64,000 bases of DNA from a virus, in IMG/VR virus record IMGVR_UViG_3300025162_000024, positions 1 through 64,000 of that record, one strand, 5' to 3'. The position numbers and the translations under genes are program-made. The notes under the pieces are model-generated. The model saw only the letters and a list, made by a program, of their open reading frames with translations, was not told where the DNA came from and made no database searches. Below, in pieces: positions 7,922 through 40,200 of this stretch (position 1 is its first letter; the number at the start of each line of letters is the position of its first letter).

Positions 7922-8278
7922 TTAGACCTGTGCTCGACCAAAGAGCTTGTTGTCGAACGCATCGTCGGACGAGACCTTCGCAGACTTCTGCGGAGCCTCT
8001 TGGGTACTCGGGCCGCCCAACGTCTGAGGTTGGATACAGCCGACCAGGAACTCCATGAGCTGGGCAGACTTGGTCTGTCCACCTTCAAGCAAAGTCTTGG
8101 TCAGACCCTCACGGGCCGTGGGCTCGGCCGCCCCCCGCTTGATCATCTCATCGACGATCCCCGGGACTCTCGCTTCAAACGCTGCACGATCATCAGCCGC
8201 CTTGGCCAGACTCTCGGTGGCCTTCGCCGTAAACTCCGAGGACCGCTTCAAGAGGGCTGTTACTTCTGGGGTAAGCAT
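7922..8278 (-). CDS. Small head-module protein
   Basis: A 118-aa mostly helical protein with charged residues alternating with Ala (TEVTALLKRSSEF, AAFEARVPGIVDEMIKRG), and no recognised domain. AAAAGGA precedes its ATG. It has two Lys-x-Ala sites (AKAADD, QKSAKV) of a kind repeated in many virion proteins of this window. It is encoded between the Ala/Pro-rich protein and the capsid proteins, so it may be a scaffold-like or minor head protein. Confidence 0.5.
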   Translation of the reverse strand: MLTPEVTALLKRSSEFTAKATESLAKAADDRAAFEARVPGIVDEMIKRGAAEPTAREGLTKTLLEGGQTKSAQLMEFLVGCIQPQTLGGPSTQEAPQKSAKVSSDDAFDNKLFGRAQV

Positions 8279-8301
8279 GTTTGTATTCCTTTTCTTGGAT
8301 C

Positions 8302-9495
8302 TTACTGGACCGGGGCACCCTGGGGGATCGCGGCCGGAGCACCTTCGACCGGAGCAGCGGCGGCCGCTGCCGGATCAGCCGCAGGGTCCTGGCCGGCACC
8401 CGCTCCACCCAGCTGGGCGAGCAATTTCTGCAGTTCCTCGGGAGGCAACTGTTCCAACATCTGGACCAACTGCATGATCTCCGGAGGAATCTGGTCACCA
8501 CCTCCAGCCTCGGGACCAGCCGGGGTCCCGCCGCCATCGGCAGGGGACGAGGCCGCTGCCGGAGCCACATTCTCCGCTTTCTTCTGGGCCGCCGTCTTGG
8601 CCAGCGTGGCCTGGACGATACCCGTCAGATCACCGATCGCCGCCAGATACCCGGACTGTTCCGGGGTATACTGAGCAGCCTGCTTCGGTTGCAGTGTCTG
8701 TTTGATCTGGGCGACCGCGTCTGTCTGACCAGCGGTGTACGCCTGCTTGAGGAGGGCAGCAATCTCCTCGGGGACCTGGGGGGCGGCTGCCTGCTTGGGC
8801 TGGGTCTGGGAGAGCAGTGCCTGGCCAAGCTGGTAACCAGCCTGGAACTCAGCGGCTTCCTTCTGGAAACCAGCGGCGACCGCATTCAGGTCCAAACCGG
8901 CCAGAGGATCAGTTGAGGTCGGCGCGACTTCAGCTGCGGCCTTAGGGGCGACCTCTGCGGCAGCCTTGGGGGCGGGTGTAGCACCCTCGTCATTCTTGAC
9001 GGCGGGGGTCGCATCCTTCTTCGGCTCTTCTTTCTTCTTGCCGACGGGGGGAACGGCGGGGGCCGCTTCGCACTTGCATGGGTCTGACTTGCACTTCTCA
9101 CAGACCTCGGCGGCCTCCTTCGTGGCGAGCATCGTAAGCTGGGCCATGAGGTCGTTGCCCTCTTCTGCCAGCTTCCGCTGCGAAGCACTCTTCAGGCTGC
9201 CGCTACCCTCGGTGGGGTCCTTCTCCTTGGGGGAGATGGCCGGCTCATCGACCAGCGTGAGCTTGGTCTTGGTCGGATCGTTGCCCTTCGCCTTGTCGGC
9301 GGACACCGATTCCTTGCTCGCCCCTTCAGGGCCCAACGGATTGAATTTCTTTGAGGCTGCTACGTTCGCAGCATCCTGGGCACCGGGGGCTGCCGAGCCG
9401 GCGTCTTTATCTTCCGTGGTCGGAAGAGTGCCAGCCGCTTTGGCCGACTTGCGGAATTTCTGAATCGCTTCGAGCAACGCGGGATTCGTGGTCAT
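8302..9495 (-). CDS. Ala/Pro/Gln-rich head protein (possible scaffold or internal protein)
   Basis: A protein of about 397 aa of low complexity: long Ala-, Pro-, Lys- and Glu-rich stretches with little predicted fold, a four-cysteine cluster (CEKCKSDPCKC) near residue 135, and a Met/Leu/Gln-rich helix near the C-terminus (MQLVQMLEQLPPEELQKLLA). The start at 9495 is chosen because GGAG lies before it; the upstream TTG would include that site. It lies just before the capsid genes, where scaffolding or prohead-core proteins are usually encoded, and it contains several KQA/KTA-type sites. A scaffold role is inference. Confidence 0.55.
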   Translation of the reverse strand: MTTNPALLEAIQKFRKSAKAAGTLPTTEDKDAGSAAPGAQDAANVAASKKFNPLGPEGASKESVSADKAKGNDPTKTKLTLVDEPAISPKEKDPTEGSGSLKSASQRKLAEEGNDLMAQLTMLATKEAAEVCEKCKSDPCKCEAAPAVPPVGKKKEEPKKDATPAVKNDEGATPAPKAAAEVAPKAAAEVAPTSTDPLAGLDLNAVAAGFQKEAAEFQAGYQLGQALLSQTQPKQAAAPQVPEEIAALLKQAYTAGQTDAVAQIKQTLQPKQAAQYTPEQSGYLAAIGDLTGIVQATLAKTAAQKKAENVAPAAASSPADGGGTPAGPEAGGGDQIPPEIMQLVQMLEQLPPEELQKLLAQLGGAGAGQDPAADPAAAAAAPVEGAPAAIPQGAPVQ

Positions 9496-17124: not shown

Positions 17125-18966
17125 TCAATACTTTCCTGTCGTCTCGAGATCTTTCCCGAATTCCTCGGGATTGATCAACGAGGCCACGTAACTAGTGTCA
17201 TGCCTTGGTGCCGTACGAGCTCTGTGTACCGTATCGAGCAGCCCCTTCTCCAGGTAGCTTCCGGCCATTCTTGTTAAAGGATTTGGGTCCCTGAGACCGT
17301 GTTCCATGGCCCGGACCATCTCTGGTTCAAACCCGGGGTGCTCCGTATCCGCGTCTACACTCTCCACGCCCAGCGACTTAAGGTCATTTGCTACCCGAGG
17401 GGTGATCCTCGTCCCTAGGGAATAATGAGCTGCGGGCTTCACCAGGTAGCGGCCGACAGCCTCATGGGTCTTTACCGACTGGACAGTTTCACTCGGCTTG
17501 TAGGCCCTGGCCAGCTGATCAAAGGTGACCAGGTCATCGGGTAACGTTCCCTCGACCCGGTCCGAGTTCGTGATCCTCGCGTGATTCTGGATCCCACGGG
17601 AGAGCACCTCTATGTTCCGACGGTGTGACCGGACGTCTGAATCGTCCAATGCCTTCTTGAACGTCTCGATGAACAGCCGGCGTCCCTCGCCCAGCCCCTT
17701 ATACTGGACGGCGTCCGACGGGTTCACAGCCCCCTCGTTCAGCGGGTCTCCGGCCTCCACCTGGTCCCCGACCTTCACTCGTAGATCTATACCGGCCGGC
17801 ACGTAATGATCCAGGGCCCCGACTTTAACGTAGTTACCACCCTGTGGAGCTTCTCGTATATCTGAGATCCTCCCGTCCTCGGAGGCTACGACTGCCGCTT
17901 CAGGGAAGACCTTGGGTGCCTGGAGCATCCGGTTGATGTAGGCAAAGCCCGATCGGGGGTGCTTCTCTTTGCTGACCGTACCACCGGTGTGCTTCTGGGA
18001 CAAGCTACCCTGTGCTATCTTCTCGCCAACAGCCTGACTGGAGGCGATCCCCACCTGATCCCCGATCCCTGGGAGCCTCCCTTTCTCACGGACCCCGGCA
18101 CATACCGAGCAGATTCCTTCGGGGGCCTGACAGGTTGCAGCCGACCTGACGAGGATCCGGGCGTCTCCCAGTCCTTTGCGGACCTCAGGTGTGATCAGGG
18201 TCCCGGCATCGTACTTCCCTGATTTCTGGGCGAGGATCGCCCCGTCATTGTCCTTGTCACTGGCGGGTACGGGAAGCCCAGATCCAGTCTTGCAATCGTG
18301 CTGGGTCACGGTCAGCCGATGGGAGACGAACGCCATCTGCTTGCCCAGGTGACCTGATTGGGCGGTCGAGAGCTTGGCACTGATCGAACCCTGACGGGCA
18401 CCGTACCCGGCCGCAAAAAATTCACTTGGGGTCAGTCCCTCCGAGTACCCATGGAGGATCGGAAAGGGGATCGTCCTCCCCCTGTGATCCGCGACCAGCA
18501 TATCCCCGATCAACCCCTGTCTGTACTGGGTAGGATTGCCTCTAGCCCCGGACAGAGCTTGAATGGCCAGAGAGTTGCCCGAGGCGATCCCCTCGTCCAT
18601 CAGCTGCTTCTCCATCGGCCGTATCTCGGACATCACCAGCTGGTTAACCGCGTTCTGCTTTGCCTCCTCAGGCATATTCGACGCATTGAGCAGGTCTACC
18701 TTGTCCCTGAGCTCCTGGCGGCGTTTCTTGAGCTCCTGGCTCATCTCCAGATCAGACATCTTGATCGAACTGCCCTGGGACCGGGCGGCCCGGCCCCCGA
18801 CATGCATCAGCCCGTTGGCCACCTTGAGATACTGGTCAGGATGCTTAGCATGCAGCTCCTCAAGCAGCTGGGCCATACCGCGGTTATCCAACAGGCGGCC
18901 TTCTGCCTGCATATCCTGAGGCAGCTGTTGATTCACCAGAAGTTGGCCAACCGTGGTTTGGATCAT
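17125..18966 (-). CDS. RNA polymerase beta' subunit, C-terminal part
   Basis: A 613-aa protein carrying the downstream half of bacterial-type beta' (RpoC). It begins with TTVGQLLVNQQLP, equal to the conserved TTVGR...N..LP of beta'. SGARGNPTQYRQ (139-150) leads into the bridge-helix region; EGLTPSEFFAAGYGARQGS and TAQSGHLGKQM (176-211) are the trigger loop; Cys225, Cys279, Cys286 and Cys289 rebuild the second beta' zinc site with the usual C-x6-C-x2-C spacing; GIASSQAVGEK (306-316) and HTGG match GVIAAQSIGEP and H(I/T)GG. It completes the beta' chain that begins in the gene at 26340, so the two should assemble into one catalytic core with the NTP site shared between them. Later residues (330-613) are more divergent. 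Confidence 0.93.
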   Translation of the reverse strand: MIQTTVGQLLVNQQLPQDMQAEGRLLDNRGMAQLLEELHAKHPDQYLKVANGLMHVGGRAARSQGSSIKMSDLEMSQELKKRRQELRDKVDLLNASNMPEEAKQNAVNQLVMSEIRPMEKQLMDEGIASGNSLAIQALSGARGNPTQYRQGLIGDMLVADHRGRTIPFPILHGYSEGLTPSEFFAAGYGARQGSISAKLSTAQSGHLGKQMAFVSHRLTVTQHDCKTGSGLPVPASDKDNDGAILAQKSGKYDAGTLITPEVRKGLGDARILVRSAATCQAPEGICSVCAGVREKGRLPGIGDQVGIASSQAVGEKIAQGSLSQKHTGGTVSKEKHPRSGFAYINRMLQAPKVFPEAAVVASEDGRISDIREAPQGGNYVKVGALDHYVPAGIDLRVKVGDQVEAGDPLNEGAVNPSDAVQYKGLGEGRRLFIETFKKALDDSDVRSHRRNIEVLSRGIQNHARITNSDRVEGTLPDDLVTFDQLARAYKPSETVQSVKTHEAVGRYLVKPAAHYSLGTRITPRVANDLKSLGVESVDADTEHPGFEPEMVRAMEHGLRDPNPLTRMAGSYLEKGLLDTVHRARTAPRHDTSYVASLINPEEFGKDLETTGKY

Positions 18967-19511
18967 TTTGACTGTGTCCCATGGTCGGCATTCTGCAAAC
19001 TACGAATATCCTCGATCGTGGCGTAATTCTTAGCCGCAGCGTCCGCAAAATCGTCCATCGCCCCCTCTCGCATGCCGAGAGCCTTAATGTACGCCCTATA
19101 CTTATCGTAATTCTGCGTATCCTCCACAAATGCCTTTCCCTCTGGCTCGGCCATTCCTTTCAATGCCCCTGCCTGCTGGTTAAGGCCGGATCTATCTGAC
19201 ATAGCGGTTACCACTCCAAGTCCCGCTCCACCCAAACCTCCGACACCTGCCCCCATAGCTGCGTTAAGGAGGTAATCCGTTGCCTTTGGATCTTTCTTCA
19301 GCAGAGTTAACAGTGCTCCTATCCCGCCGCCGGCCAAAGCCCCAGCCCCGCCATAGGTAGCTGCCCGGCCCGGGACCATCCCACCAAGACCTTGCGAAGA
19401 TGCCTCGTTAAGCCGCTGCCACATGCTGGAGTCGGCTATATTATCAGTGAACGCCAGCTTCCTGTACAGCTCTCGCCCAAGTTGTTCACATGCTTCTTTG
19501 GTCACGGTCAT
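18963..19511 (-). CDS. Gly-zipper membrane protein with LGRELYRKLA tag
   Basis: A 182-aa protein. Its N-terminus, TKEACEQLGRELYRKLAF, is shared with the proteins at 22649 and 23247 and, more loosely, 25145. Residues about 50-110 form two glycine-zipper hydrophobic hairpins (GGAGALAGGGIGALLTLLKK, then AAMGAGVGGLGGAGLGVV) with the linker KDPKATDYLLN between them. The same linker-and-zipper unit appears in the proteins at 23247 and 37294. The remainder is helical and polar. Its stop overlaps the start of the beta' C-terminal gene by four bases (ATGA), so the two are likely co-translated. The likely role is an internal, membrane-active virion protein. Confidence 0.7.
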   Translation of the reverse strand: MTVTKEACEQLGRELYRKLAFTDNIADSSMWQRLNEASSQGLGGMVPGRAATYGGAGALAGGGIGALLTLLKKDPKATDYLLNAAMGAGVGGLGGAGLGVVTAMSDRSGLNQQAGALKGMAEPEGKAFVEDTQNYDKYRAYIKALGMREGAMDDFADAAAKNYATIEDIRSLQNADHGTQSK

Positions 19512-19514
19512 CGC

Positions 19515-20711
19515 CTAGTTAGGGACATCCGACGAGGTCCTGGATATCTCTGTCCAGTTCACCCCGTCAAACAGGAATATAATCGATTGAGAGTGGCCTG
19601 CCGAAGGCGGGCGGAATGCAGCCAGCTTGAAGGCCGGGGCGAATGTGACAACCCCGAGGGCCCCGGGGCCCGCATTCTTCACGGTCAGGGTCAGCATCTG
19701 GGTATAGACCGAGGACGGGGCATTGATATACACGGGATTACCGTCAGTGATCGAGATGATCGCATGGTTGTACTGGTTGCCAGGGATGGTCACTGAACCA
19801 CCGCCGGACACAGTCGTCTGATACGTGTTGAACGCAGCCTGCTTACGGAAGTAGGTGCCGTACTGGTTCTCGACCGTAAACTTACCGGTCCCGTCCAGGA
19901 GGATGATCTTGTTTGCAGAGTTGTTGATCGTGACCTGGCCGGCCACCGATCGCAGGGTAATCACGCTCTCATAACAGCTAGAGTCGATCTTGGCCGGGCC
20001 CGCCACGTTCCCCTCGGTATACCCGTTAAGCACGCAGTAAGGTCGATTCACGTACAGCCCGTACCCAGCGTTCCCCTCTACATCGAAGCTCACGGCTACG
20101 GTACACCCAGCAACCCCCAGGTGGATCCCGTCGCCACGGTTGCCTACGGAGGAGACCGAGACGAGCGTCCAGGCATTGGTATTGTCGAACCCGACAGCCT
20201 TGGAATCGAGGCAAACCCCATGGCCAAGATTAGCCTGGGTCGAACAGCTCTCGATCAGCCCTGAGTTACCGTTGACTACATTGATCCCGTGGCCGCCCTG
20301 GTGTGTCACCTGAAGCGAGCGCAGGACACAGTTACCAGCCCCGTTCGTGGTGTCGACCAGGCCGATGACGATCCCATCCATGGTCCTGCCGACTACGGCC
20401 GTATCGAGTGTAAAGTCCTCAAGAGACACTCCGTCGGCCCCGGACTCCACCTGGATCCCAACCACATCCTTGGTCTTGACCAGGATGGTCCCGGGACCCG
20501 CCCCTCTAAGCTTCATAGACTTAGAGATCTTCAGGGTCGAGGAGATCGCAAACTTACCGGGTGGGAGAGCGACGGTCCCCCCAACGGCCTGGGCCGCTTG
20601 TATCGCAGCTTGAATCCCGGCAGTAGAGTCATTGACCCCTGTCGGATCGGCTCCGTACGCCGTGGCATTGAACTCTGTGGCGGTCACTATCACTGGCTTA
20701 GAAGCTGCCAT
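19515..20711 (-). CDS. Right-handed beta-helix protein (tail spike)
   Basis: A protein of about 398 aa of the pectate-lyase-like beta-helix class. The N-terminal NATAYGADPTGVNDSTAGIQ followed by AIQAAQAVGGTVALPPGKF is the classic Pectate_lyase_3 opening; GISIKLRGAGPGT-like and repeated short strands with GHGINVVNGNSG, NLGHGVCLDSKAVG and GDGIHLGVAG make up the coils. The C-terminal 120 residues form another beta-rich region. Such proteins are trimeric spikes that bind or degrade host surface polysaccharide. The ATG at 20711, with AAGGA upstream, is preferred over the GTG at 20735. Confidence 0.8.
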   Translation of the reverse strand: MAASKPVIVTATEFNATAYGADPTGVNDSTAGIQAAIQAAQAVGGTVALPPGKFAISSTLKISKSMKLRGAGPGTILVKTKDVVGIQVESGADGVSLEDFTLDTAVVGRTMDGIVIGLVDTTNGAGNCVLRSLQVTHQGGHGINVVNGNSGLIESCSTQANLGHGVCLDSKAVGFDNTNAWTLVSVSSVGNRGDGIHLGVAGCTVAVSFDVEGNAGYGLYVNRPYCVLNGYTEGNVAGPAKIDSSCYESVITLRSVAGQVTINNSANKIILLDGTGKFTVENQYGTYFRKQAAFNTYQTTVSGGGSVTIPGNQYNHAIISITDGNPVYINAPSSVYTQMLTLTVKNAGPGALGVVTFAPAFKLAAFRPPSAGHSQSIIFLFDGVNWTEISRTSSDVPN

Positions 20712-20721
20712 CTTAATATCC

Positions 20722-20955
20722 TTAAGGTTTTCCACCGACTAGCTTTACAACACTGCGTGCGGGGCTCACCCCGAGGGCCGCTGCCCTCTCCTGAAAGTCA
20801 GAATCAGCGGCGTTCGAGACGACCACGCCCTGTGCCCCGTAATCCGAAGCTACGAGCAGCGGTTGCCCAAAGCTATCGAGGATTGCAAGGCCAGAGGCCC
20901 CGTCAATCTCGAACTTCTTGCCAAGGGCACCCCCGGCCTGGACCAGCAACTTCAT
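20722..20955 (-). CDS. Small hypothetical protein upstream of tail spike
   Basis: A 77-aa soluble, beta-prone protein (KLLVQAGGALGKKFEIDG, PLLVASDYGAQGVVVSN). No family is recognised. Its start overlaps the stop of the gene at 20955-21551 by one base and it ends 10 bases before the spike gene, so it is firmly inside the operon. Spike-adjacent small proteins can be caps or adaptors, but nothing in the sequence shows this. Confidence 0.5.
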   Translation of the reverse strand: MKLLVQAGGALGKKFEIDGASGLAILDSFGQPLLVASDYGAQGVVVSNAADSDFQERAAALGVSPARSVVKLVGGKP

Positions 20956-21551
20956 TAACGGCCTCCCCGGGACTGTCTGAACGCTTCGAGAGCGGAGCTA
21001 GCCGCTTTAGACCCTTGGGGCTGCTGAGCAGGTCCGCCGGGCATCCCCTGCAAGACATTCGAGCCGGCCAATGCCTGGTCAAGGCCGTTACCGGCCTGTG
21101 CCGGGTCCACGGCCTGTCCAGAGATCCCTGCACCCATCACGGTGGGCTGGCCCTGCTCTGGAGGCTGTTCCTGGTTGGAGGGGGCTGAGACATCCGACTG
21201 AGGGGCGAGCCCCAGATACTCGAGCATCCGGGTCACCAGATCCTCAAGGTTCGTGATCCGCTCGTCTGTAGAGGGCTTCTTGGGCTTCTCCTGCCCCTCG
21301 CGGACCGCGTCGGTCAGCATGTTCTTCAGCGTGTTGGGGTCGATCCCTGCCGGCTGCTGCGGAGGTGCCTGGGGTTGGGCTTGGGCTGGATCTTGGGGAG
21401 GGCCACCCTGAGGAGGCTGTTGCTGCTGTTGGGCAGCTTGCTCCTCGGGTGAGGGGGTGACCCCCTGGGCGGTCATCGGGGTGTACGCCCGCTTCTCCAG
21501 CAATTCCATCGCCTCCTTCATCAGCCCGGCCAATTTTGGATTGTATGCCAT
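20955..21551 (-). CDS. Pro/Gln-rich virion protein
   Basis: A protein of about 198 aa. The first 25 residues are helical (MAYNPKLAGLMKEAMELLEK) and contain a KRAY site; the next 60 are a Gln/Pro-rich disordered linker; a short helix (ITNLEDLVTRMLEYLGL) and a Gly/Gln-rich tail follow. The ATG at 21551 is preferred to the TTG at 21569. The leader and first codons of this gene exist a second time in decayed form at 22564-22640, on the other side of a two-gene insertion. Function unknown, probably structural. Confidence 0.55.
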   Translation of the reverse strand: MAYNPKLAGLMKEAMELLEKRAYTPMTAQGVTPSPEEQAAQQQQQPPQGGPPQDPAQAQPQAPPQQPAGIDPNTLKNMLTDAVREGQEKPKKPSTDERITNLEDLVTRMLEYLGLAPQSDVSAPSNQEQPPEQGQPTVMGAGISGQAVDPAQAGNGLDQALAGSNVLQGMPGGPAQQPQGSKAASSALEAFRQSRGGR

Positions 21552-21582
21552 ATGCCTGTAGTTTACCAAGAAGGCCTGGAGA
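21506..21582 (-). repeat. Direct repeat copy 1 (intact leader and gene start)
   Basis: Minus-strand 21582-21555 matches 22640-22613 at 24 of 28 bases (core TTGGTAAACTACAGG here, CTGGTAAACTACAGG in the other). The likeness continues into the first codons of the gene at 21551 (PKLAGLMK). The two copies flank the cassette at 21583-22563. Confidence 0.75.
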
Positions 21583-21624
21583 CTGCTGTCTTACTCGGAG
21601 ATCGCTCCAGGTGGAGACCCGTGA

Positions 21625-22029
21625 CTAGCCAGTCTGATACGGGTACATGTAGTTGAACTTCTCAGCACGCTTAATACAGCCACAGGGACGGCCAAGAAGT
21701 TTGAGAGACATTACCTTCCACAGCCAGCCTATGACCCCAGCTAACCTGTGCAGGGTATCCCCAACCCCCTTGTCTGTGGAGTTGGATACCCGCCGAACTG
21801 TTCTCGCCCATAGAGGCCACGCAGAGAATGGCACTATCTTGAGCGGTGTAAACTTGCCCGTACGCGGATAACTGCCAAGTCCAAGTTGGTAGTGGACCAG
21901 AGGGATAAGCCAACCGCCATCTTTCGGTGTTGCGTACTGTTCGAGGAACTTAATCCACGCAGCAAAGCGATCTGCGGCGGCTGCCTTTCGATAATGCTCA
22001 ACCGTTTCTGCGGGAATAGTAATGCGCAT
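21625..22029 (-). CDS. Moron-like protein with C-terminal CGC..R..NYMYPY motif
   Basis: A protein of about 134 aa. The ATG at 22029 is chosen because a terminator hairpin (22043-22079) lies inside any longer frame. The N-terminal part is helical; residues about 25-75 look beta-prone with GGWLIPLVHYQLGLGSY. The C-terminus (GVGDTLHRLAGVIG, then GRPCGCIKRAEKFNYMYPY) resembles a short C-x-C..R...N...P motif that ends many small phage and bacterial proteins of unknown role. It belongs to a cassette inserted between virion genes. Confidence 0.55.
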   Translation of the reverse strand: MRITIPAETVEHYRKAAAADRFAAWIKFLEQYATPKDGGWLIPLVHYQLGLGSYPRTGKFTPLKIVPFSAWPLWARTVRRVSNSTDKGVGDTLHRLAGVIGWLWKVMSLKLLGRPCGCIKRAEKFNYMYPYQTG

Positions 22030-22042
22030 GAGGTGGCTCAAC

Positions 22043-22079
22043 AAAAAGGGGTAGTAGAAGGCTTTTCGTCTACTACCCC
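22043..22079 (-). terminator. Rho-independent terminator inside the moron-like cassette
   Basis: An 11-bp perfect stem (GGGGTAGTAGA / TCTACTACCCC) with a 10-base loop is followed on the minus strand by TTTTT. It ends the transcript of the gene at 22092-22550. Confidence 0.85.
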
Positions 22080-22091
22080 TATCCATAATTC

Positions 22092-22550
22092 TTACTCCCA
22101 AACGGTCGGGTAGGTAGAACGCGGCGTCGGCCGAGGGGGGTCGGGAGGGTAGTAGAGATCCCTACATTCTGCATTACCACCTGGGGTAGGTCCAATACAT
22201 TCATGGGTATAGTCTGTAAGGGCTATCTTATGAGTACCTTCAGGGTACTCAGGATAGAGCGGCACCCACATGTTATCTGTAACTACATCTGAGTAAGCAC
22301 AAACTATATTGAGCATTCTGATATACTCTTGCGTACCATCTCCTTCTCCCATATCTTTTATGGTACTATACCATACCACTTTACAAACATATGCAGGGAT
22401 ATGTATGAGAGGTTTTATTCCATTAATTCCAGACTGACTGGTTCCAGACGTGGGCTGCATCGCCAGTAGTTTGGGGAGTGCCATCGGAAGAGCCACTAGG
22501 GCTACCGCGGCCATGCCAAGTCTCTTGATAAATTGAATACGAGTTACCAT
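22092..22550 (-). CDS. Exported moron-like protein
   Basis: A 152-aa protein with an N-terminal signal-like segment: basic start (MVTRIQFIKRLG), hydrophobic core (MAAVALVALPMALPKLLA), then polar sequence. The mature part is Tyr-rich with four cysteines and a Pro-rich tail. No family is recognised. Base use is visibly more AT-rich than the neighbours, AAAGGA precedes the ATG, and a dedicated terminator follows. Together with the flanking direct repeats this marks an acquired moron: a gene expressed on its own, perhaps altering the host envelope. The function is unknown. Confidence 0.6.
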   Translation of the reverse strand: MVTRIQFIKRLGMAAVALVALPMALPKLLAMQPTSGTSQSGINGIKPLIHIPAYVCKVVWYSTIKDMGEGDGTQEYIRMLNIVCAYSDVVTDNMWVPLYPEYPEGTHKIALTDYTHECIGPTPGGNAECRDLYYPPDPPRPTPRSTYPTVWE

Positions 22551-22563
22551 AACGATATCCTTT

Positions 22564-22640
22564 CTACGTTTCCTGCTTCATCAGACCGGCCAGTTTCGGC
22601 CTAAGTCATCTACCTGTAGTTTACCAGGAAGTCTCGGAGA
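22564..22640 (-). pseudogene. Decayed copy of the start of the gene at 20955-21551
   Basis: The minus strand repeats the leader of the gene at 21551 and then its first codons with a one-base loss: the shifted frame still reads RPKLAGLMKQ, matching NPKLAGLMKE, before stopping at a TAG. It is the second arm of the direct repeat that brackets the cassette at 21583-22563 and marks where the cassette entered. Confidence 0.65.
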
Positions 22641-22648
22641 ACGTCGGC

Positions 22649-23257
22649 CTACTTGGGGATCGAGCCGATCAACGATCCCAGGGGGAGGCCCATGAGGAAC
22701 CGGTGCTTGGACTCTCTGCGGTTCATGATCTCAGACGTCTTATTGCTGGTCCGGGCTAGAATCGTGTCTGCCAGAGCCTGACCGGCACCGGTAGTGAGCA
22801 GGGCTGAGAGAGTGGCTGCCCCTCCAGCCGACAGGCCCATTGTCGAGACATCTGCACTACGAAAGGCCTGAGGGTGAGCCGATGCATAGGCTGCCGTCCC
22901 CAGCCCAGTGAGCAGTCCGATGACCACTGAGGGAAGTGCGTACTGGCTCACGCCATGCACGAAGCTCTGTCCAAAGTGGCCCTTACGCTTCTCTGCCTGT
23001 GCCTTCAGGGTATCCAGGTATTCTTTACCCTTGTTCCCAGCAGGCATATTCAGCGTGTCCGTAATCGGAGCTCTAAGCAGGCTCAGCCCTGGAACGAAGC
23101 TGGTAGGGGCCACGGCCAGACTCTTCCAGGGGTTATCGATGGCCGAGGACAGCTCATTGCTCACCGACTGCCCGACCCTCCCCAAGTACGAGGAGTCATC
23201 GGCCGCCATCTTCCTGTACAGCTCCCGTCCGAGTTGCTCACAGGCCTTACCGGTCAT
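22649..23257 (-). CDS. Gly-zipper membrane protein with LGRELYRKMA tag
   Basis: A protein of about 202 aa. The start at 23257 gives the N-terminus MTGKACEQLGRELYRKMAAD, matching the tag of its paralogues; it overlaps the upstream stop by 11 bases and has GAGAG upstream. Hydrophobic Gly/Ala/Leu segments follow at about residues 98-120 (YALPSVVIGLLTGLGTAAY) and 135-160 (GLSAGGAATLSALLTTGAG). The C-terminus (FLMGLPLGSLIGSIPK) is again apolar. It is probably an internal virion protein that inserts in membranes; it is encoded between its closest paralogue and the RNA polymerase half. Confidence 0.65.
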   Translation of the reverse strand: MTGKACEQLGRELYRKMAADDSSYLGRVGQSVSNELSSAIDNPWKSLAVAPTSFVPGLSLLRAPITDTLNMPAGNKGKEYLDTLKAQAEKRKGHFGQSFVHGVSQYALPSVVIGLLTGLGTAAYASAHPQAFRSADVSTMGLSAGGAATLSALLTTGAGQALADTILARTSNKTSEIMNRRESKHRFLMGLPLGSLIGSIPK

Positions 23258-23876
23258 ATGGGTTACTCTCGTCAGTACCGCGGGCAGCGTTGTTGTATCC
23301 CATAGCACTGTTAGTCATCATCTTCCAACTCGGCAAGCTCTCTGCATCCTTATCCGTCATGTAGCTGCCGTGTCTCTCGGCAATGAGCCCAGGGGCCTTC
23401 TTGTTATACGCCTCGGCCTCATTCTTACTGATAGTCTGCAGGGCATCGATACTCGGACCGGTCAGGAACTGACCTACGGGATTAGCCCTGCGGTTCAGGG
23501 TGGCCGTTGCCAGGTTGTTATCGGCCTGGACCAGGGGGGCTACAGCCTCGCCAAGATGCTTGTTGATATCCGAGTAATCCTCGGTCGCCTGCTGGTAACC
23601 TAGCCCGGCTCCGCCCGCTGCACCCAGGCCACCCCCGATCAAAGCGTTCAGAAGGTAGTCTTTGGCCTTCGGATCTTTCTTGAGCAACGCGGTCAGCAGG
23701 CCACCGCCAGCCATTCCGGCCAGGGCCCCGGCACCCCCATAGGTAGCGGCCCGACCCGGGACCATCCCACCCAGGTTGTTGGCCGCCGACTGATTCAGCT
23801 GCTGCCACATATTCGGATCGGCAGCCAGCTTACGGAAGATCTCACGGCCGAGGTTCTCACATGCTTCTTTGGTCAT
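23247..23876 (-). CDS. Gly-zipper membrane protein with LGREIFRKLA tag
   Basis: A protein of about 209 aa and the closest paralogue of 18963-19511. Shared parts, in order: TKEACENLGREIFRKLAADP, a short MW..LNQ segment, GGMVPGRAATYGGAGALAG, KKDPKAKDYLLNALIGGG and a second glycine zipper. After residue 105 it is polar and helical. The ATG at 23876 is preferred because it gives the conserved N-terminus. Two membrane hairpins are expected. The duplication of the whole unit in one operon suggests the copies form a mixed complex. Confidence 0.7.
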   Translation of the reverse strand: MTKEACENLGREIFRKLAADPNMWQQLNQSAANNLGGMVPGRAATYGGAGALAGMAGGGLLTALLKKDPKAKDYLLNALIGGGLGAAGGAGLGYQQATEDYSDINKHLGEAVAPLVQADNNLATATLNRRANPVGQFLTGPSIDALQTISKNEAEAYNKKAPGLIAERHGSYMTDKDAESLPSWKMMTNSAMGYNNAARGTDESNPYDR

Positions 23877-23886
23877 AGTCGTATCT

Positions 23887-25101
23887 CTACTTAGGTTGGA
23901 GTACATCCATCAGTTTAACACGGGCCGCATCAGATATCGGAAGATTAACCCGGTTCTCTACCGATCGGATGATCGGGCTGTTCTTGGACGCCTGGATCTT
24001 CTCTTCTCGCTCCTTGACCTTCCGACGGTGCCACAGGTAAGTGGCGATCCCGGCGAGGGCCGCCCCACCCCCGATAGCCCAAGGAGCGTACTTGTCGGCT
24101 ACCGCCTTGATCGTGCCGGCAGCGGGGGCCACCGACTCCTCGTACCCGTGACCACCGCCACGGAACAAGTGTCCTAACTGCATTTCCTGCAGCTGCTTAC
24201 GCAACCACAGGCTTGGTTCCTGCTGCTTCAGATAGCTATCGAACTCTTCCCGGGCCCGGGGCTGCTCTGGTAGAGGGATCTGCTCACCGTACCCCTTGTG
24301 CTGCTTGAACAGTTCAAACTCTGTACGCAGCCTGGGATAGAAGTCCCTGGAAGACATGCCAAGGGCTCCTCGGACATTACCGGTGACCGCCGCCTCTGGA
24401 AGCTGCTTTCGCATACCGACCAGCACCTTATGGGCGTTTTCGATCACCTTGGGGTCTTCCGACTCCAGGATCTTCTTGGCGTATGTGGCTATTGCCTCTG
24501 GGTCCTCCCCGGGGGCCGGCGGAGGCGGCTCATTAGGATCGTCACTGCCCAGAGCGGGTGCAGCAGGTCCAGCCGGTGCCCCTGGGGCTGTCGGCGTCTC
24601 CCGATACTCAAAGAACTTGGACAGGCCGGAGACAGCCTCGTCCTGCATCATCTTGTGTGCCCAGGACTTCTCCATCCCCGCTTCGCGATGCAGCTGCATC
24701 AGCCCGTTGAGAGGACCAGCCTGGAATTCTTTGTAATGCTGATAGTGCTCAGGTTCCCATTCCTCTGCGTCCTTAGGCACCAGCCACCGGCGGAGCGGGC
24801 TTCCACGAGCTGCGAGCATCACGTCGGGGACCCCCACGCCAAGCACGTGGAACTGGGCGGCGGTCGACCCGCGATCCGTGTACTCCCGGAGCGTCTCACG
24901 ATAATCATCGTCAACCGGAGGTGCCCCGACCGCCCCAAACCTATGCAGGGTTCCAGTGGCGTCCGGGCCGTTCAGTGCCGAGCTAACCGCGAGCCCCGTG
25001 GCACCCATACCGATCCCGGCTACTCCAGCCCCGCCGAGAGCGGCTTCCAGGCCAGCATTGAACGACGTGCGTTTCTTCTTCTTATTGATCGGATCGATCA
25101 T
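23887..25101 (-). CDS. Two-anchor membrane virion protein
   Basis: A 404-aa protein with a Lys-rich start (MIDPINKKKKRTSF), a Gly/Ala hydrophobic segment at about 18-43 (LEAALGGAGVAGIGMGATGL), a long polar helical and Pro-rich centre (with PNEPPPPAPGEDPEA), and a second hydrophobic segment at about 345-362 (YAPWAIGGGAALAGIATYLW) followed by a basic stretch. No enzyme motif. The topology, with both ends membrane-active, resembles the other internal proteins of this block. Confidence 0.6.
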   Translation of the reverse strand: MIDPINKKKKRTSFNAGLEAALGGAGVAGIGMGATGLAVSSALNGPDATGTLHRFGAVGAPPVDDDYRETLREYTDRGSTAAQFHVLGVGVPDVMLAARGSPLRRWLVPKDAEEWEPEHYQHYKEFQAGPLNGLMQLHREAGMEKSWAHKMMQDEAVSGLSKFFEYRETPTAPGAPAGPAAPALGSDDPNEPPPPAPGEDPEAIATYAKKILESEDPKVIENAHKVLVGMRKQLPEAAVTGNVRGALGMSSRDFYPRLRTEFELFKQHKGYGEQIPLPEQPRAREEFDSYLKQQEPSLWLRKQLQEMQLGHLFRGGGHGYEESVAPAAGTIKAVADKYAPWAIGGGAALAGIATYLWHRRKVKEREEKIQASKNSPIIRSVENRVNLPISDAARVKLMDVLQPK

Positions 25102-26339: not shown

Positions 26340-29300
26340 TCACGCCTTGAACTGTACCGGATCGTTCAATCCCAGCTCTCCCCTGTGGTAAGCGTCGACC
26401 GCCGACTCCCGGTCCAGGAACGACCGGGGCTGAGCCTTCTTAGCCGCCTGGGTCGCCAGGTACAGCCCGATCAGGTACTCCTGGCGTGGGCCCATATGGG
26501 GTTTGAACGTGTTGACCGCCAGGAGATTGCGGGAGGGCATCATCTTCTCACGGGCATCTTTCACGGCCTCGGCGGTGACCGGTACTGAGTAGGACAGTAC
26601 GTCACCATCCGCATCCGCCCCGAACCCAGGGAGGACAAACGGATGCAGGGCTATCGTGCTGCTCTGCCTGATCTTAGGGTTGAACGCCATGTACCCGTAG
26701 CGGTGCCAAACTGGAGCTCTAGTCATCAGGATTGGACGTTCTTCCATCTCCTTGTCCATCGCCTGTCTGGCTCGCGGATCCCTGTTCTCTACCCACTTAG
26801 CTAACTCCAGGACCGGAACCCGACTGGCACCTGCGTTGTACTGCTGAGAGAGCCGACGGAGGATGAACGGCTTGTACACCTGCCATGCAGTATTCTCAGG
26901 GATACCCGCATCATCCACGTCCAGAGAATCGTCTGGGGAGAACACGGCCTTGCCCGATCCGACCATGGAAGAGCCTACCATACGCCGTTGGAGGAGGCCG
27001 GTTTTGTTAGTATCTTTACCGAACACATGAGCTAACAGACCACCAACGTTCTTATTCTCAAGCTCTGGATTTACCGAGTTATCGCGGCCAACAGCCGCTC
27101 GAATAGCGTCATATACAGCAAGGCGGTGCTCGCCTAAAGGCATTCCCTTCTCTTTGGCATCTTTCAGATTGTCATTGAGCGAGAAGAGCTCCTTGTACAT
27201 GAGATTGGCATCACTCGTCAGTTGCATTCCGTCGATGATCGACACGGGCCGGAACATCGGGGGTACTACGGGCACAGCCGACCAGAACAAGCTCTTGGGG
27301 TCGACACCGGTCTTTTTCAGACCATCCAGGTACCCCAGCTTGCGTATGGCGTCATCCCGCTTCTGACCTTTCAGACCAGGGATCTGCTGCTTTAGCCGAT
27401 CCCACTCCTTGCCAACGTCTATCCCTCCAACTTTCTGCTCGAGCTCTGCAGGGTCCTTTGCCAGCTGCTCTCGGTACTCTTTTACCGTAAGCCCCAGCAA
27501 CCGGCGGAGCGGATCCTCCATGATCGGGCTGGGCATCTTCTCCTGCAGGGGCAAGGACGACCATCTTTGTCCATGGTGGCCACCGGTCATCCCTGTGTCG
27601 AACAGGCCGCCTGGTACAGCCTCTCCGGTCTTTCTGTCCACGGCATCCCCCGAGGTCAGAGAGTACGGAGCCAACTGCTTTATGTCCGAATCGGTCATCG
27701 CCCCGAAGTTCAGGTCTCCGTCCTTCTCCTGTACATTGACCCCGGCCCCCTTCAGGTAGGCCAGGAACTTATCGTAGACCATAGGTCGATGCAATGGAGG
27801 TGTTGGAAGCCCGCGTCGAAAAGCATCCCAGAAATCGTCGTTTCGCTGGCCGCGGACCAACTTGGCATCTTTGAGGACGTTAGTGGCACCCATCGACAGG
27901 AGTGCGTTGGTATCAAGCAGACCAAGCCGCTTAGAGTTCCCCTCTTCGCCCTTGCTCGGTAAATCCTCGGCCGTGTACCCTCCAACCTCGTCCCTAGCCC
28001 CTTCCTTACCCTCCGCTGAGTGCATGAGCCTGTAGTAGAAGCGGTTACCGACCGCCACGTCCTTCAGCGTACGCCCAGTCTCAGGATCGTGTACGTCCTC
28101 CTCCAGTTTCATCCCGTTCTTGGCCAACTCGGTCTTTGCGAAATTCGCCCAATCGCCCTGGAACGGCCTGACCAGATACGGTTTTCCGGTCTTAGCCGCG
28201 ATCTTCCCCAGGGCGGCGGCCACCACCTGAATGTGATTAACACGGCTTGTAATGCCCAGTGGATTCACCACAATTTCAGTAGGTTCTCCGCCCTGATCAT
28301 GCGGCATGGAAGTATCTGGCACTACTGCACTTACAATTCCTTTGTCCCCGAATGTACCAGCTAGCTTATCCCCGACATGCATGGGCTCCACGCCCTTGAC
28401 AATGACCTTGACCTGTCCGTCATCATCCCGGTATGTGTCTGTGACTGTCCCAGGGTAGCTCTTATCCCAAGTCACACTGTCGTCGGCCCATGCAGAGTGC
28501 CTGGTTGCATGCACTGCCTGGCTCCGCAAGGTCTTCCTCTGCCCCACGGCCAGGATCAGCGGGTCACCCTCGTTCACGACCGTACCCTGCTTGACCACCC
28601 CATCATCGCCCACCATGCTCAACTGATCCCTGGTGTACTTCGACGGATACATCCCGAGGAACTTACCGCGATCGACTTCTTTGCCCTCTCCAGGTTCGTA
28701 GCTCACCTGGTGCATACGCTCGGCGGCCAGCTTCTTAGCCGCGGTCTCGCTGATGATGATGGCGTCCTCGTGGTTCGGGGCACCCTTATACGAGAACGGC
28801 AGATACGCGACCTTCAGGTTCTTCCCAAGGGCGAGTGTCCCGTCCTTGTCCGTGAAGTTCGCATGGGCCAGCATCTGCCCAGATTTGACCGTATCCCCTG
28901 CTTTGACCGCTGGGGTGTGATGGATGAACGTCGCGTAGTTGTAGGGGAAGTTGTTGTAGAGCTGGTGAACGTCCTTGCCGTCTCCGCCGTATGAGACGGT
29001 GATCGCATCAGGGGTAACCTCCAATACCCGCCCATCACTCTTGGCCCGGACCACCGATCGATTGCCAACCTTAGACTCGAAACTGACCCCGTCATCATCC
29101 GAGCTCTGAACATGCGGGGCCTCCCCATGCTCCAGGGGCAAAGCCTGCTTGATCATGCGAGAGCCCATGATGTGCCGGCCTCCCTTCTCCCCGCTGAACC
29201 CAGGGACCAGGTTGGACATGGTCGAGAACATCCGCTCGGGTGCTGGAGGCACGTAATCCACCTGATCACGGGGGACCACGGTCAGCTTGCCCTTGACCGA

Positions 29301-30686
29301 GGCCCGGACCAGCTTAGCCTTAGGGTCGTCCAGTTCTCCGGGGAACGCCACAACCTTACCCCATACGTCCTCGGCTGCGATCGGCGCAATCTTTCCGGTG
29401 CGTGCATCTCGCATCTGAGAGTACAGTCGCCCGTCAGATCCTTTGAGTGTTCCGGTAGCGGCCCGGACATCGACACCCACGGAGCTCGACTCAACAGTGA
29501 AGATAGGGTCTATGAACCCGAGCTGTGATGGATGCTGGTTACGACTCTCCATTGGGATTGACCCTTTGGAGGTAATCCCACCCTCACCCAACCGAGTAAT
29601 CCGCAAATGCTGGTCAAGGATTTCCACAGGGTTGGTTTCTGTCCCGTGCGTGCCCAGCCCGCTGTACAATATCGCTGAGTGTAATTGAGGAGTCAGCGCG
29701 GAGGCGGGCATCGCCTTCAGCGATCCGTGCCTCGTCGCCTTCCACAGCAGATTGCGGACCAATCCCCCGGCATCCTTAGTGATCCTTTCGGCCAGCAGGT
29801 CCTCAGGGCCCATGATCTGCTGGTTAGCCTGGTCATCACGATCGTCGAAGTCTACTTCTCCCCGGTTCAGCTGCAGGAGCTTCTTGGCCGCTCCGAGCAT
29901 CGCCCCAGGAGTTACCCGATCTGTGTCCAACCCGAGATTCCTCTGCATAACCCGACGATCGATCCGGGTAGCGTCCAACGCCTGCCTGAGAGTCTCCTGT
30001 GGCGTAAGCTTCAGGGCCTGGAGCTTCTCGCTCCCCATCCGGAGAGCTGCTCGGATCACAGCATCCCCCTCAGCCCGGATCCCCGTGTTCTTCGCCAGCA
30101 GCTCTTTGCCCAATGCGTCTTCCAGCTGCTTGTCGTCCACTCCAAGGGCACGTAGCACTGGCAGGAGAGGGATGTTCCCCTGATCCAGGCTCATTTTGAA
30201 CACACCGGTCTCTGGCTCCATCGAGATCCGGAACGACTTACCCCGCTGTACGTTGAATACGCTCTCGAGCTCCCCGTTCTCCTTCTGGCGGCTGTAGACC
30301 CCGGGCTTCACCCGGCTCTGGTTGGCCAGCGTGTACTGGCCCCCGTTGTGGATGAACACCCCATCCTGGGTCATGTAGGGGACCGAAGCGACCATCTTGG
30401 TCTGCTTGTCTACACTCTGCCCAGTAGCCTTATCAATCAGGTTCCAGGTGCCTTTGAGCTTCCGGCCGAGAGTTCTCCTCTTCAAGATCGCTTCCTTCTG
30501 CTCGGCGATCGAGAAGTCTTTGGGCCCTGACCATCCGAGGTCCGAGAGCTCTAACCGGTACTTCTGGTTCTCGACAGGGAACTTGCTCTGAATTGACGAA
30601 AAGACCTTGTCATCGACCGCCTTGCGGAGGGCAGGGATATCGTCAAGGGCGCGGAGGGCCACGGGATCTTCAAGCTCTTCGGGCAT
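26340..30686 (-). CDS. RNA polymerase beta/beta' fusion (beta plus N-terminal half of beta')
   Basis: A 1448-aa single chain. The beta part has HPSQLGFIDPI (385-395), PNHEDAIIISE (637-646, as in FEDAIIISE), VGDKLAGTFGDKG (771-783, with both lysines of VGDK...NKG) and NPLGITSRVN (808-817). It continues without a stop into beta': a clamp-like segment GHHGQRWSSLP (1036-1046), VPVVPPMFRPV, RRMVGSSMVGSGKAV (the GKRVDYSGRSVI region), PFILRRL, RPILMTRAPVWHRYG, and the active-site loop GADADGD (1356-1362), which keeps the three Mg-binding aspartates of NADFDGD. It ends soon after that loop. The beta' N-terminal zinc site is not visible. The remaining beta' is the gene at 17125. No alpha, omega or sigma gene is seen here. 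The product should transcribe phage genes, possibly from within the virion. Confidence 0.95.
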   Translation of the reverse strand: MPEELEDPVALRALDDIPALRKAVDDKVFSSIQSKFPVENQKYRLELSDLGWSGPKDFSIAEQKEAILKRRTLGRKLKGTWNLIDKATGQSVDKQTKMVASVPYMTQDGVFIHNGGQYTLANQSRVKPGVYSRQKENGELESVFNVQRGKSFRISMEPETGVFKMSLDQGNIPLLPVLRALGVDDKQLEDALGKELLAKNTGIRAEGDAVIRAALRMGSEKLQALKLTPQETLRQALDATRIDRRVMQRNLGLDTDRVTPGAMLGAAKKLLQLNRGEVDFDDRDDQANQQIMGPEDLLAERITKDAGGLVRNLLWKATRHGSLKAMPASALTPQLHSAILYSGLGTHGTETNPVEILDQHLRITRLGEGGITSKGSIPMESRNQHPSQLGFIDPIFTVESSSVGVDVRAATGTLKGSDGRLYSQMRDARTGKIAPIAAEDVWGKVVAFPGELDDPKAKLVRASVKGKLTVVPRDQVDYVPPAPERMFSTMSNLVPGFSGEKGGRHIMGSRMIKQALPLEHGEAPHVQSSDDDGVSFESKVGNRSVVRAKSDGRVLEVTPDAITVSYGGDGKDVHQLYNNFPYNYATFIHHTPAVKAGDTVKSGQMLAHANFTDKDGTLALGKNLKVAYLPFSYKGAPNHEDAIIISETAAKKLAAERMHQVSYEPGEGKEVDRGKFLGMYPSKYTRDQLSMVGDDGVVKQGTVVNEGDPLILAVGQRKTLRSQAVHATRHSAWADDSVTWDKSYPGTVTDTYRDDDGQVKVIVKGVEPMHVGDKLAGTFGDKGIVSAVVPDTSMPHDQGGEPTEIVVNPLGITSRVNHIQVVAAALGKIAAKTGKPYLVRPFQGDWANFAKTELAKNGMKLEEDVHDPETGRTLKDVAVGNRFYYRLMHSAEGKEGARDEVGGYTAEDLPSKGEEGNSKRLGLLDTNALLSMGATNVLKDAKLVRGQRNDDFWDAFRRGLPTPPLHRPMVYDKFLAYLKGAGVNVQEKDGDLNFGAMTDSDIKQLAPYSLTSGDAVDRKTGEAVPGGLFDTGMTGGHHGQRWSSLPLQEKMPSPIMEDPLRRLLGLTVKEYREQLAKDPAELEQKVGGIDVGKEWDRLKQQIPGLKGQKRDDAIRKLGYLDGLKKTGVDPKSLFWSAVPVVPPMFRPVSIIDGMQLTSDANLMYKELFSLNDNLKDAKEKGMPLGEHRLAVYDAIRAAVGRDNSVNPELENKNVGGLLAHVFGKDTNKTGLLQRRMVGSSMVGSGKAVFSPDDSLDVDDAGIPENTAWQVYKPFILRRLSQQYNAGASRVPVLELAKWVENRDPRARQAMDKEMEERPILMTRAPVWHRYGYMAFNPKIRQSSTIALHPFVLPGFGADADGDVLSYSVPVTAEAVKDAREKMMPSRNLLAVNTFKPHMGPRQEYLIGLYLATQAAKKAQPRSFLDRESAVDAYHRGELGLNDPVQFKA

Positions 30687-37293: not shown

Positions 37294-40200
37294 TTATTCT
37301 ACATCACCCTGTGTCTTGTGCGACAGGTCGTTCCATCCCTTGACCAGGCTCTGGACCCTGGGATCTTCGTACTTCACTGGCTTTGAGCCTGCGGAGTCCT
37401 CCGCGTACTGGAAGCCACCGCCTGGCCGGGGCAGCCTGAAGATGCCTGATGGTTTGCCAGCGGCGTCGTTCTGGGCCCCGTAGAACTTATCCCCAAGCTT
37501 CTTCTCCCCTTGGGCCACTCCGATCCTACCGCTCATAACCTCTGAGTCCGGGCCGGGCAATATGCCTCTGACGAACTGGCCCAGGCCGAGTACTGGATGG
37601 ACGTTGAGCGATCGGCCTATGGCGTCGGTGGTCGCGTCGATCGGCCCGAGCTTCTCGCCCTCTGGGCCTACCCCGTAGTCACGGAAGGCTCCGATCGTTG
37701 TGTTGTGCTGCCGCTGCATGATCCCGTTGGCCTCTGAAAGGGCCTGGGCCATCCCCGGATCTTCCCGTCCCGCACTCATCTCACGCACCCTGATATCCTT
37801 GGCCAAGGTCAACATACGCCCTCCGTCCAGGCCGCCTTCGACCAGGGCCCCGGCCCCGCCCACGGCCAACCCCGTCTTCAAAGCTTTAGTCGAAGCCTTT
37901 GCCCCACTCAGCACATGTCGAACTGTGTTAGCCCCCATCCATACGCCCATCCCGTTCAAAGTGAGCTTCTCAGCCGCCCTCTGTCTGTCTTCAAATGTCT
38001 TTCCGGTCACGACACCAGATAACCCGGTGGCCGCCTCTTGGGCCATCCCGGGGGCCATCGCGACCATGGCCGGGGCCATCGCCGGATTGACCATGGCCGT
38101 CAAGGGCTTGACCCCTTCTTCATATGTATCGGAGTTCTTGGCTGCCTGGGACCGGCCGGGGTATGCCGGGTCCTCCTCGGGCAGCTTCTGCCCCGAGTCC
38201 ACCCTTATCTGCTCTTTGGCCCGCTCCTCTGGCTGCAGGTCCCAGTCTTTCATGGAGACGCTGGAGATCCCTGCTCTAGGATCTTCCGTGGGCTTTGCCT
38301 GTCCAGCTCGGTAGGCTCCGAGACCGGCACCGCCCACTCCGCCCAGGCCCGCTCCGATCAAGGCATTCTTCAGGTAGTCTTTCAGCTTGGGCCTCTCCTG
38401 GAGCAGGGTGATCAGAGCACCTAGGCCTCCGCCGGCCAGGGCCCCGGCCCCACCGTAGACCGCGGCTGAGGTCCCGGCATCTGCAGATTGCTTGGGCTCC
38501 CCCTGGTTAAAGGTGCGGACGTAGCCGGGCATAAGCCGGGACATCTCGGCATCGGGGAAGCCCCCCTCGTTCTCCTCTACATCCTTAAAACGAGGATGCT
38601 CAGGGATCGCGAAGCTCTTGGAAGGATCCTTCGGATCAGGCGCAGTTTTTCCCATGTTCTGCCTGAACCAAGAAATAGCTTTCAACGCGTCTTCCGGCGT
38701 ATGCACCGGCTGCCCGGTAATGTCCGAGTACAGCCGCTTGATGTCCGCAGCCGCATTCGACAACTCAAGCTTACGGTTAGTCTCCAAGGTAGTCCACCGG
38801 GTATCGTTCCTTTGTAGACTGTGGCCAACCTCGTGCCTTCCGAACATCAGCTGCAGAGCACGATTAGTCGCGGGATCTGCGGATGACGCCTGATCTGAAG
38901 CGATATCATGATGGGCTATATACTTAGATACCGGAGCAGGTCTACTCAGGTAGCTTGAGACTGGCTCTGATCTCGATTCTCTCGCCCCGTTGACAAACGA
39001 GGCCGGAACATTAGTCTCCCCGCCAGCCGAGTAATTCGACTGTTCGGTCGGCACAGAGTGCAATGCCAAGGGCCTATCGGCCTTGGACAAGTCTTGATCC
39101 TCCAATTCGGTCATCTTATGGGAGGCGGCGTACCCTTTGGCCAGGTCTATCTCACGATTGATACCGCCAGGTAGCTTTGAGTAGGCTGGAGCCAACGCCT
39201 GCCTCGGGGTCGTGACAGCCTCTGCCCCCACTCCTCTGAGTTTGCCCATCGGTGTAATGTCCGGAAGATCAAGCTTCTCCACTGGTAGCCTTGGTCCCGG
39301 TTCCCCCGCCTGCTTCGGTCCAAAGGTCCTAGCATATCCTGGAAGTTGGTTTACTGGCTGGTTACTGACCACACCGGGCATAACCTGGGCTGCCCAGTCG
39401 TCGGGGAACCCGCCGTTGTCCTCGTACACCTGATAGTCCAGGGCGGTCGGGATCTTCCCGGTGTTCTTAAGCATCTCACGACCCATAACCTCGTTTTGCT
39501 GCCCAAACCTGGGAGGCAACAGATCAGAAAGCCCCGGCACATTCTTATACAGATCCGACGGGATCCGCTTAGCAAGCCAATCTCTAGCTCGCTCAAGTGT
39601 TCCCCATTCGCCCCTGGGATTGAAATTATGAGTGGCAGTATTCACCCGTCGGGCCTGCTCAGGATCAGTGTTCTGCCTGTACCAGGCCAGAGCCTCACTA
39701 GCCTCCTGAGGGTTAGTTACAGGTTTACCCGTGTGCAGAGCGTACTGCCGCTTGATCTCACCAACATTGTTAAGAAGCTCTATAGGCCGGTTTATGTGCC
39801 CCATTCCATCCGACGGAAGTTTCTCTAAACCCAGATCAGCGGCTGTGTATGGTCTGCCCATTAAACCAGCTATATCTTCGGACTTCTGACTTCCATGCCC
39901 GCCTATTTCATGCGCAGTAACCGCAGACGCCATGCTCCCAAGAGGGGCGGTCCCCGGACGAGGAACAAACGCCGTAGGTCCCGAGCTGTCGAGCGTAAAA
40001 GGACCGCCAAAGGCGTTGCGAGCTTCTGGAGCATACGCAAACCTGGCAGTAGGGGCAGCCCGGCTACCAGGCACTTCGGGGCGTACGACACGATACAGCC
40101 CACTCTGAAAACCTGCCTGAGCCTTCTGGGCAACTTGTGGGTCGGATTCCCAGTATGTCTTAGCATCGGCATAAACCTTGTCAAGACCTCCCGGAACCTT

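Follow-up and report, generated by a model that had tools for sequence, protein, structure and literature searches.

How a pair of genes, here termed casA and casB, came to lie between two neighbouring genes (U and T) of a large phage, enclosed by two versions of one stretch of DNA, is the question raised by this locus. A preliminary description had taken the pair to be a moron cassette that entered by recombination between duplicated gene starts and was 'caught in the act'. The window analysed here spans 64 kb at the start of a 124,318-base IMG/VR virus record. The positions of the features are listed in Table 1.

Genomic setting and relatives

A split multi-subunit RNA polymerase is encoded in the window (beta, 26340-30686; beta', 17125-18966). 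Its subunits show 26-32% identity to those of Salmonella phage Arash and Vibrio phage D69 and about 36-41% identity to the best IMG/VR relatives. The minus strand carries every gene at issue (U, casA, casB, T and their neighbours) in the transcription order beta, three genes, U, casA, casB, T, a gene for a 77-residue protein, a pectate-lyase-like gene, a tagged gene and beta'. No family was assigned to gene U in family searches; gene T encodes a P/Q-rich protein that is a probable virion component.

In six of the eight relatives compared (L011, L117, L118, L120, L121 and L126) a P-rich, T-like gene directly follows beta with no casA- or casB-like gene in between, and in L122 and L123 the two are separated by another open frame. 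The aligning part of T is its N-terminus (hhalign E = 3e-4, probability 38%). Matches to the 77-residue gene behind T occupy the corresponding position in two relatives. No match to casA, casB or U was obtained in 13 relative records, which are possibly fragments and were searched with no positive control, and the insert region had no match at the DNA level in the phage records searched. The collections searched yielded no close relative at the DNA level, and hence no view of the empty site. The interval between beta and beta' ranges from 0.6 to 8.6 kb among the relatives examined and, being so variable, looks like an insertion hotspot.

The beta gene of L011 (10001-14794) carries an intein-like insert at the GEEG/NSKR site, and intein-like C-terminal ends (LYFANNVLVSNS and LYGVYGVLVSNS) precede the same site in the beta genes of L118 and L120; the beta gene of the window has no intein-like insert. 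Opposite-strand DNA ligase-like genes were recognized by eye in the beta-beta' interval of L013 (15412-16302) and L027 (16431-17423). In L003 a self-complementary stretch of about 280 bases (8247-8522; record positions 92247-92522) forms a long imperfect palindrome (76%, E = 8e-44).

Within the window, helix-like starts ending in K-x-A (RKLA, EKRA, RKRA) are found on many nonhomologous minus-strand genes between 6036 and 41472, for example those at 18963, 20955, 22649, 23247 and 25145, the last of which also has such a stretch internally (EELGRQLFRKLA). The enrichment of K.A within the first 60 residues is only 1.5-fold overall. Similar starts occur in relatives (MNKYLEKLA in L027; K.AF.P in the T family), and the stretch could be a tag for virion targeting or protease processing. 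A glycine-rich paralogous stretch (NLGGMVPGRAATYGGAGALAG) is common to three genes at the DNA level (19261-19523, 23599-23895 and 38318-38466). Gene starts pair differently from these bodies (19452-19493/23204-23245), which suggests that start and body modules were shuffled separately among these genes. A further direct repeat of 90 bases was found elsewhere in the window (51938-52027/58340-58429, 83% identity, E = 2e-19).

Table 1. Features of the U-T region (positions in the window).
Feature	Position	Strand	Description
Gene T	20955..21551	-	P/Q-rich, probable virion protein; syntenic gene just after RNAP beta in relatives
Repeat copy 1	21512..21624	-	Intact T start preceded by leader, spacer and decayed U end (13-base gap)
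Leader core TGGTAAACTACAGG, copy 1	21555..21568	-	Precedes T start
casB	21625..22029	-	134 aa; C-terminal G[LV]GDT...CGC.KR..K.N..[FY]PY module; native stop codon
Intrinsic terminator after casA	22047..22080	-	12-bp perfect stem, T run
casA	22092..22550	-	152 aa, AT-rich; N-terminal signal TRIQFIKRLGMAAVALVALP, four Cys
Repeat copy 2	22572..22697	-	Intact U end and stop, spacer, promoter-like leader, decayed T start
Leader core TGGTAAACTACAGG, copy 2	22613..22626	-	Promoter-like GGTAAACT
Gene U, upstream neighbour	22649..23281	-	ORF; N-terminal tag MTGKACEQLGRELYRKMA; U part of the repeat lies at its 3' end

The duplicated U-T boundary

The repeat around the T start exists as reported, with a core of 93 bases (21512-21604/22572-22662) at 74% identity (blastn E = 4.8e-8) and a gapped local score of 95 against a maximum of 47 for about 1000 random window pairs. 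The repeat search returned it as two segments, 21544-21604/22602-22662 at 74% (offset 1058) and 21512-21539/22572-22599 at 24/28 (86%; offset 1060). It does contain the T leader and first codons, but it is larger than had been claimed. On the U side, TCACGGGTCTCCACCTGG, just after the casB stop in copy 1, resembles TCATGGGCCTCCCCCTGG inside the U end at 15 of 18 positions, a score matched by four of 20,000 shuffles and one of 20,000 window 20-mers (about 1e-4). Because the repeat spans U codons as well, what was duplicated is the whole U-T boundary, composed of the last U codons, the spacer and the first T codons.

Identity between the copies is uneven: it is highest in the leader core (90%) and the T codons (86%), intermediate in the U end (72%) and around the start codon (64%), and lowest in the spacer (55%). 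The 24 of 28 matching bases previously ascribed to the leader belong to the T codons (CCAAAATTGGCCGGGCTGATGAAGGAGG), and the leader core matches at 19 of 21. Copy 1 starts right after the casB stop codon. An extension of the repeat into casB was considered and rejected: a colinear U match beyond 21624 adds almost nothing (score 26 versus 24), and the residues concerned are a conserved phage motif. As this motif nearly reaches the stop, the stop codon is native to casB and the repeat is unable to extend into the gene.

The two copies have decayed reciprocally. Copy 2 preserves the end of U, but two bases, not one as first described, are missing from its T start, which now reads ATG-ACT-TAG. Copy 1 preserves the T start, and a 13-base gap disrupts the frame of its U end. 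Each copy retains exactly the half that its own neighbour needs, which is the expected state of a doubled boundary in which each neighbour kept its needed half. Of the four positions at which the T codons differ, three are synonymous changes even though copy 2 no longer functions (P of about 0.06 by our own rough estimate from n = 4). Mostly synonymous changes, together with a higher identity in the T codons than in the spacer, suggest, though on small numbers, that copy 2 was once a live T start diverging under selection and worked as such in a diverged relative. The timing implied by 'caught in the act' is unsupported: the copies are some 26% diverged and bear indels, and the searches gave no close relative with an empty site.

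The inserted genes and the duplicated leader

The insert between the boundary copies comprises 947 bases (21625-22571) and contains casA, a terminator and casB. Each of the features previously noted in it was recovered, namely an AT-richer gene, a signal-like hydrophobic N-terminus (by inspection), a strong terminator and a CGC..R motif in the small gene (casB). The GC profile places casA lowest among 43 genes in both GC (47.3%, z = -3.5) and GC3 (41%, z = -3.7); casB has 53.1% GC (z = -1.7). By inspection, the start of CasA is positively charged and hydrophobic and resembles a twin-arginine-type export signal without the second arginine, and CasA is probably exported as predicted from this signal. 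The terminator hairpin has a folding energy of -21.9 kcal/mol (z = -4.3). The predicted structures lacked confidence (pLDDT 48 for CasA and 44 for CasB) and were too poor for a structure search; the roles proposed for the two proteins are drawn from features of their sequences.

No relatives of casA were found in the phages, IMG/VR, bacterial genomes or family libraries searched. The C-terminal module of CasB, G[LF]GD...CxxC.KR...N...PY, is common to proteins of Microcystis phage Mel-JY01 (WWT39382), Nonlabens phage P12024S (P12024S_35) and ctfjg026 (UOF82526) and to at least 220 IMG/VR loci. CasB differs from the three named proteins in carrying about 85 extra N-terminal residues; the IMG/VR relatives L037, L038 and L040 align to it farther upstream, for example over a WP(L/M)W-like stretch. 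The relative in P12024S lies near the annotated large terminase gene and that in L037 near a terminase-like frame (by eye); a single-sequence search of bacterial genomes gave none. Judged by sequence, CasB is a small phage accessory protein whose C-terminus is that of a widespread phage protein family without a name.

The 14-base leader core is identical in the two copies (14/14). It was considered as a dispersed element and rejected, there being no enrichment in the window. The shorter pattern GGTAWACT is present five times on the window's gene strand, each time in a noncoding leader (the noncoding share being 5.8%); the pattern was generalized after the leaders had been seen, and two of the five occurrences are the repeat copies themselves. 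Its enrichment was sought in relatives and none was found. A sigma-70 scan upstream of casA gave no match. With its promoter-like motif, the copy-2 leader may be a captured promoter that drives casA, which is a reasonable reading.

Origin of the insert and known systems

The explanation that we favour, with a probability of about 0.6, is that a foreign two-gene insert was gained via out-of-register recombination at the U-T boundary. The segment casA-terminator-casB would have entered between U and T, leaving two versions of one boundary flanking it, the second of which was probably supplied by a diverged relative. The leader kept in copy 2 would serve as the casA promoter, with transcription ending at the hairpin, while T would retain its own leader; exported CasA would act at the host envelope. 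The parts of this account seen directly are the paired boundary copies, the reciprocal decay and the foreign composition of casA. The terminator belonging to casA and the lack of U or T remnants in the insert support insertion.

A tandem duplication of the U-T block within this phage (U-T-U-T), in which casA and casB later replaced the inner T and U and left the outer edges of the inner copies, would reach the identical end state, and paralogous stretches abound nearby (19261-19523/23644-23895 and 19452-19493/23204-23245). We regard this course as conceivable but doubtful, as casA and casB hold no remnants of an inner T or U and the uneven identity with mostly synonymous T-codon changes favours a once-live allele over neutral decay. 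That conservation peaks in the leader core (19/21), and that GGTAWACT stands ahead of other genes, would also follow if the repeat were a regulatory element dispersed before many genes, like T4 PeSL or mycobacteriophage start-associated sequences, and its match at the flanks incidental. This is improbable given that no exact copies of the 14-base core exist in the window beyond these two, that the match extends into coding sequence of both genes, with U codons at one end and T codons at the other, and that neither copy folds with unusual stability (z = +1.29 and +0.08).

Foreign DNA between direct repeats could recall a mobile element inserted by a transposase or integrase with target-site duplication. 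We give this very little credence: no family match to a recombinase, transposase or nuclease was found for casA or casB, a repeat of more than 90 bases far exceeds the usual target duplications, and terminal inverted repeats were not found at the insert ends. An assembly chimera is conceivable in that the source record is an assembled metagenomic contig, but it is just as hard to credit, both flanks sharing strand and gene block; assembler confusion is unlikely between copies that are 26% diverged.

Recombination at the U-T boundary agrees with the preliminary description in kind but not in detail or timing, and the latter is partly supported: insertion at a duplicated boundary stands, whereas the 'duplicated starts' are a gene-gene boundary. 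A broader view, which we hold to be rather unlikely, has gene starts serving as recombination joints in this phage group, with an incoming gene bringing a duplicated resident leader as a working late promoter and the resident keeping its own; the U-T boundary would then be one fossil of promoter capture at a hotspot between RNAP beta and T.

Phage morons are foreign genes with their own transcriptional control (PMC2266997). The insert resembles them in that it adds, between genes of the virion block, genes that deviate in base composition and have a terminator of their own, and the term moron cassette holds to the extent of the deviant composition and this terminator. It differs from them in having no sigma-70 promoter match before casA and in comprising two genes with the terminator between them and a long duplicated gene boundary on either side. 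In T4-like phages, PeSL promoter/stem-loop cassettes bring about the shuffling of genes (Arbiol 2010; Comeau 2014; via PMC4503421). As far as they are outlined in that source, they share with this locus a repeated intergenic stretch, a promoter-like motif and an adjoining accessory gene; here, in contrast, the repeat includes codons of both neighbours, has no stem-loop and is present in two copies only. Cluster K mycobacteriophages have start-associated sequences, elements of 13 bp that precede many genes (PMC3203893) and likewise lie just ahead of start codons, whereas here one boundary of 113-126 bp is present twice.

The locus documents with unusual clarity how accessory genes are added to a large phage while both neighbours stay unharmed: the boundary is duplicated, and decay affects each half only where that half is dispensable. 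Should the retained leader drive casA, it would show a new gene obtaining expression at once; should it not, ordinary phage mosaicism is what remains. The insert is a well-preserved product of ordinary phage mosaicism, a clear fossil of gene shuffling and not a new type of system.
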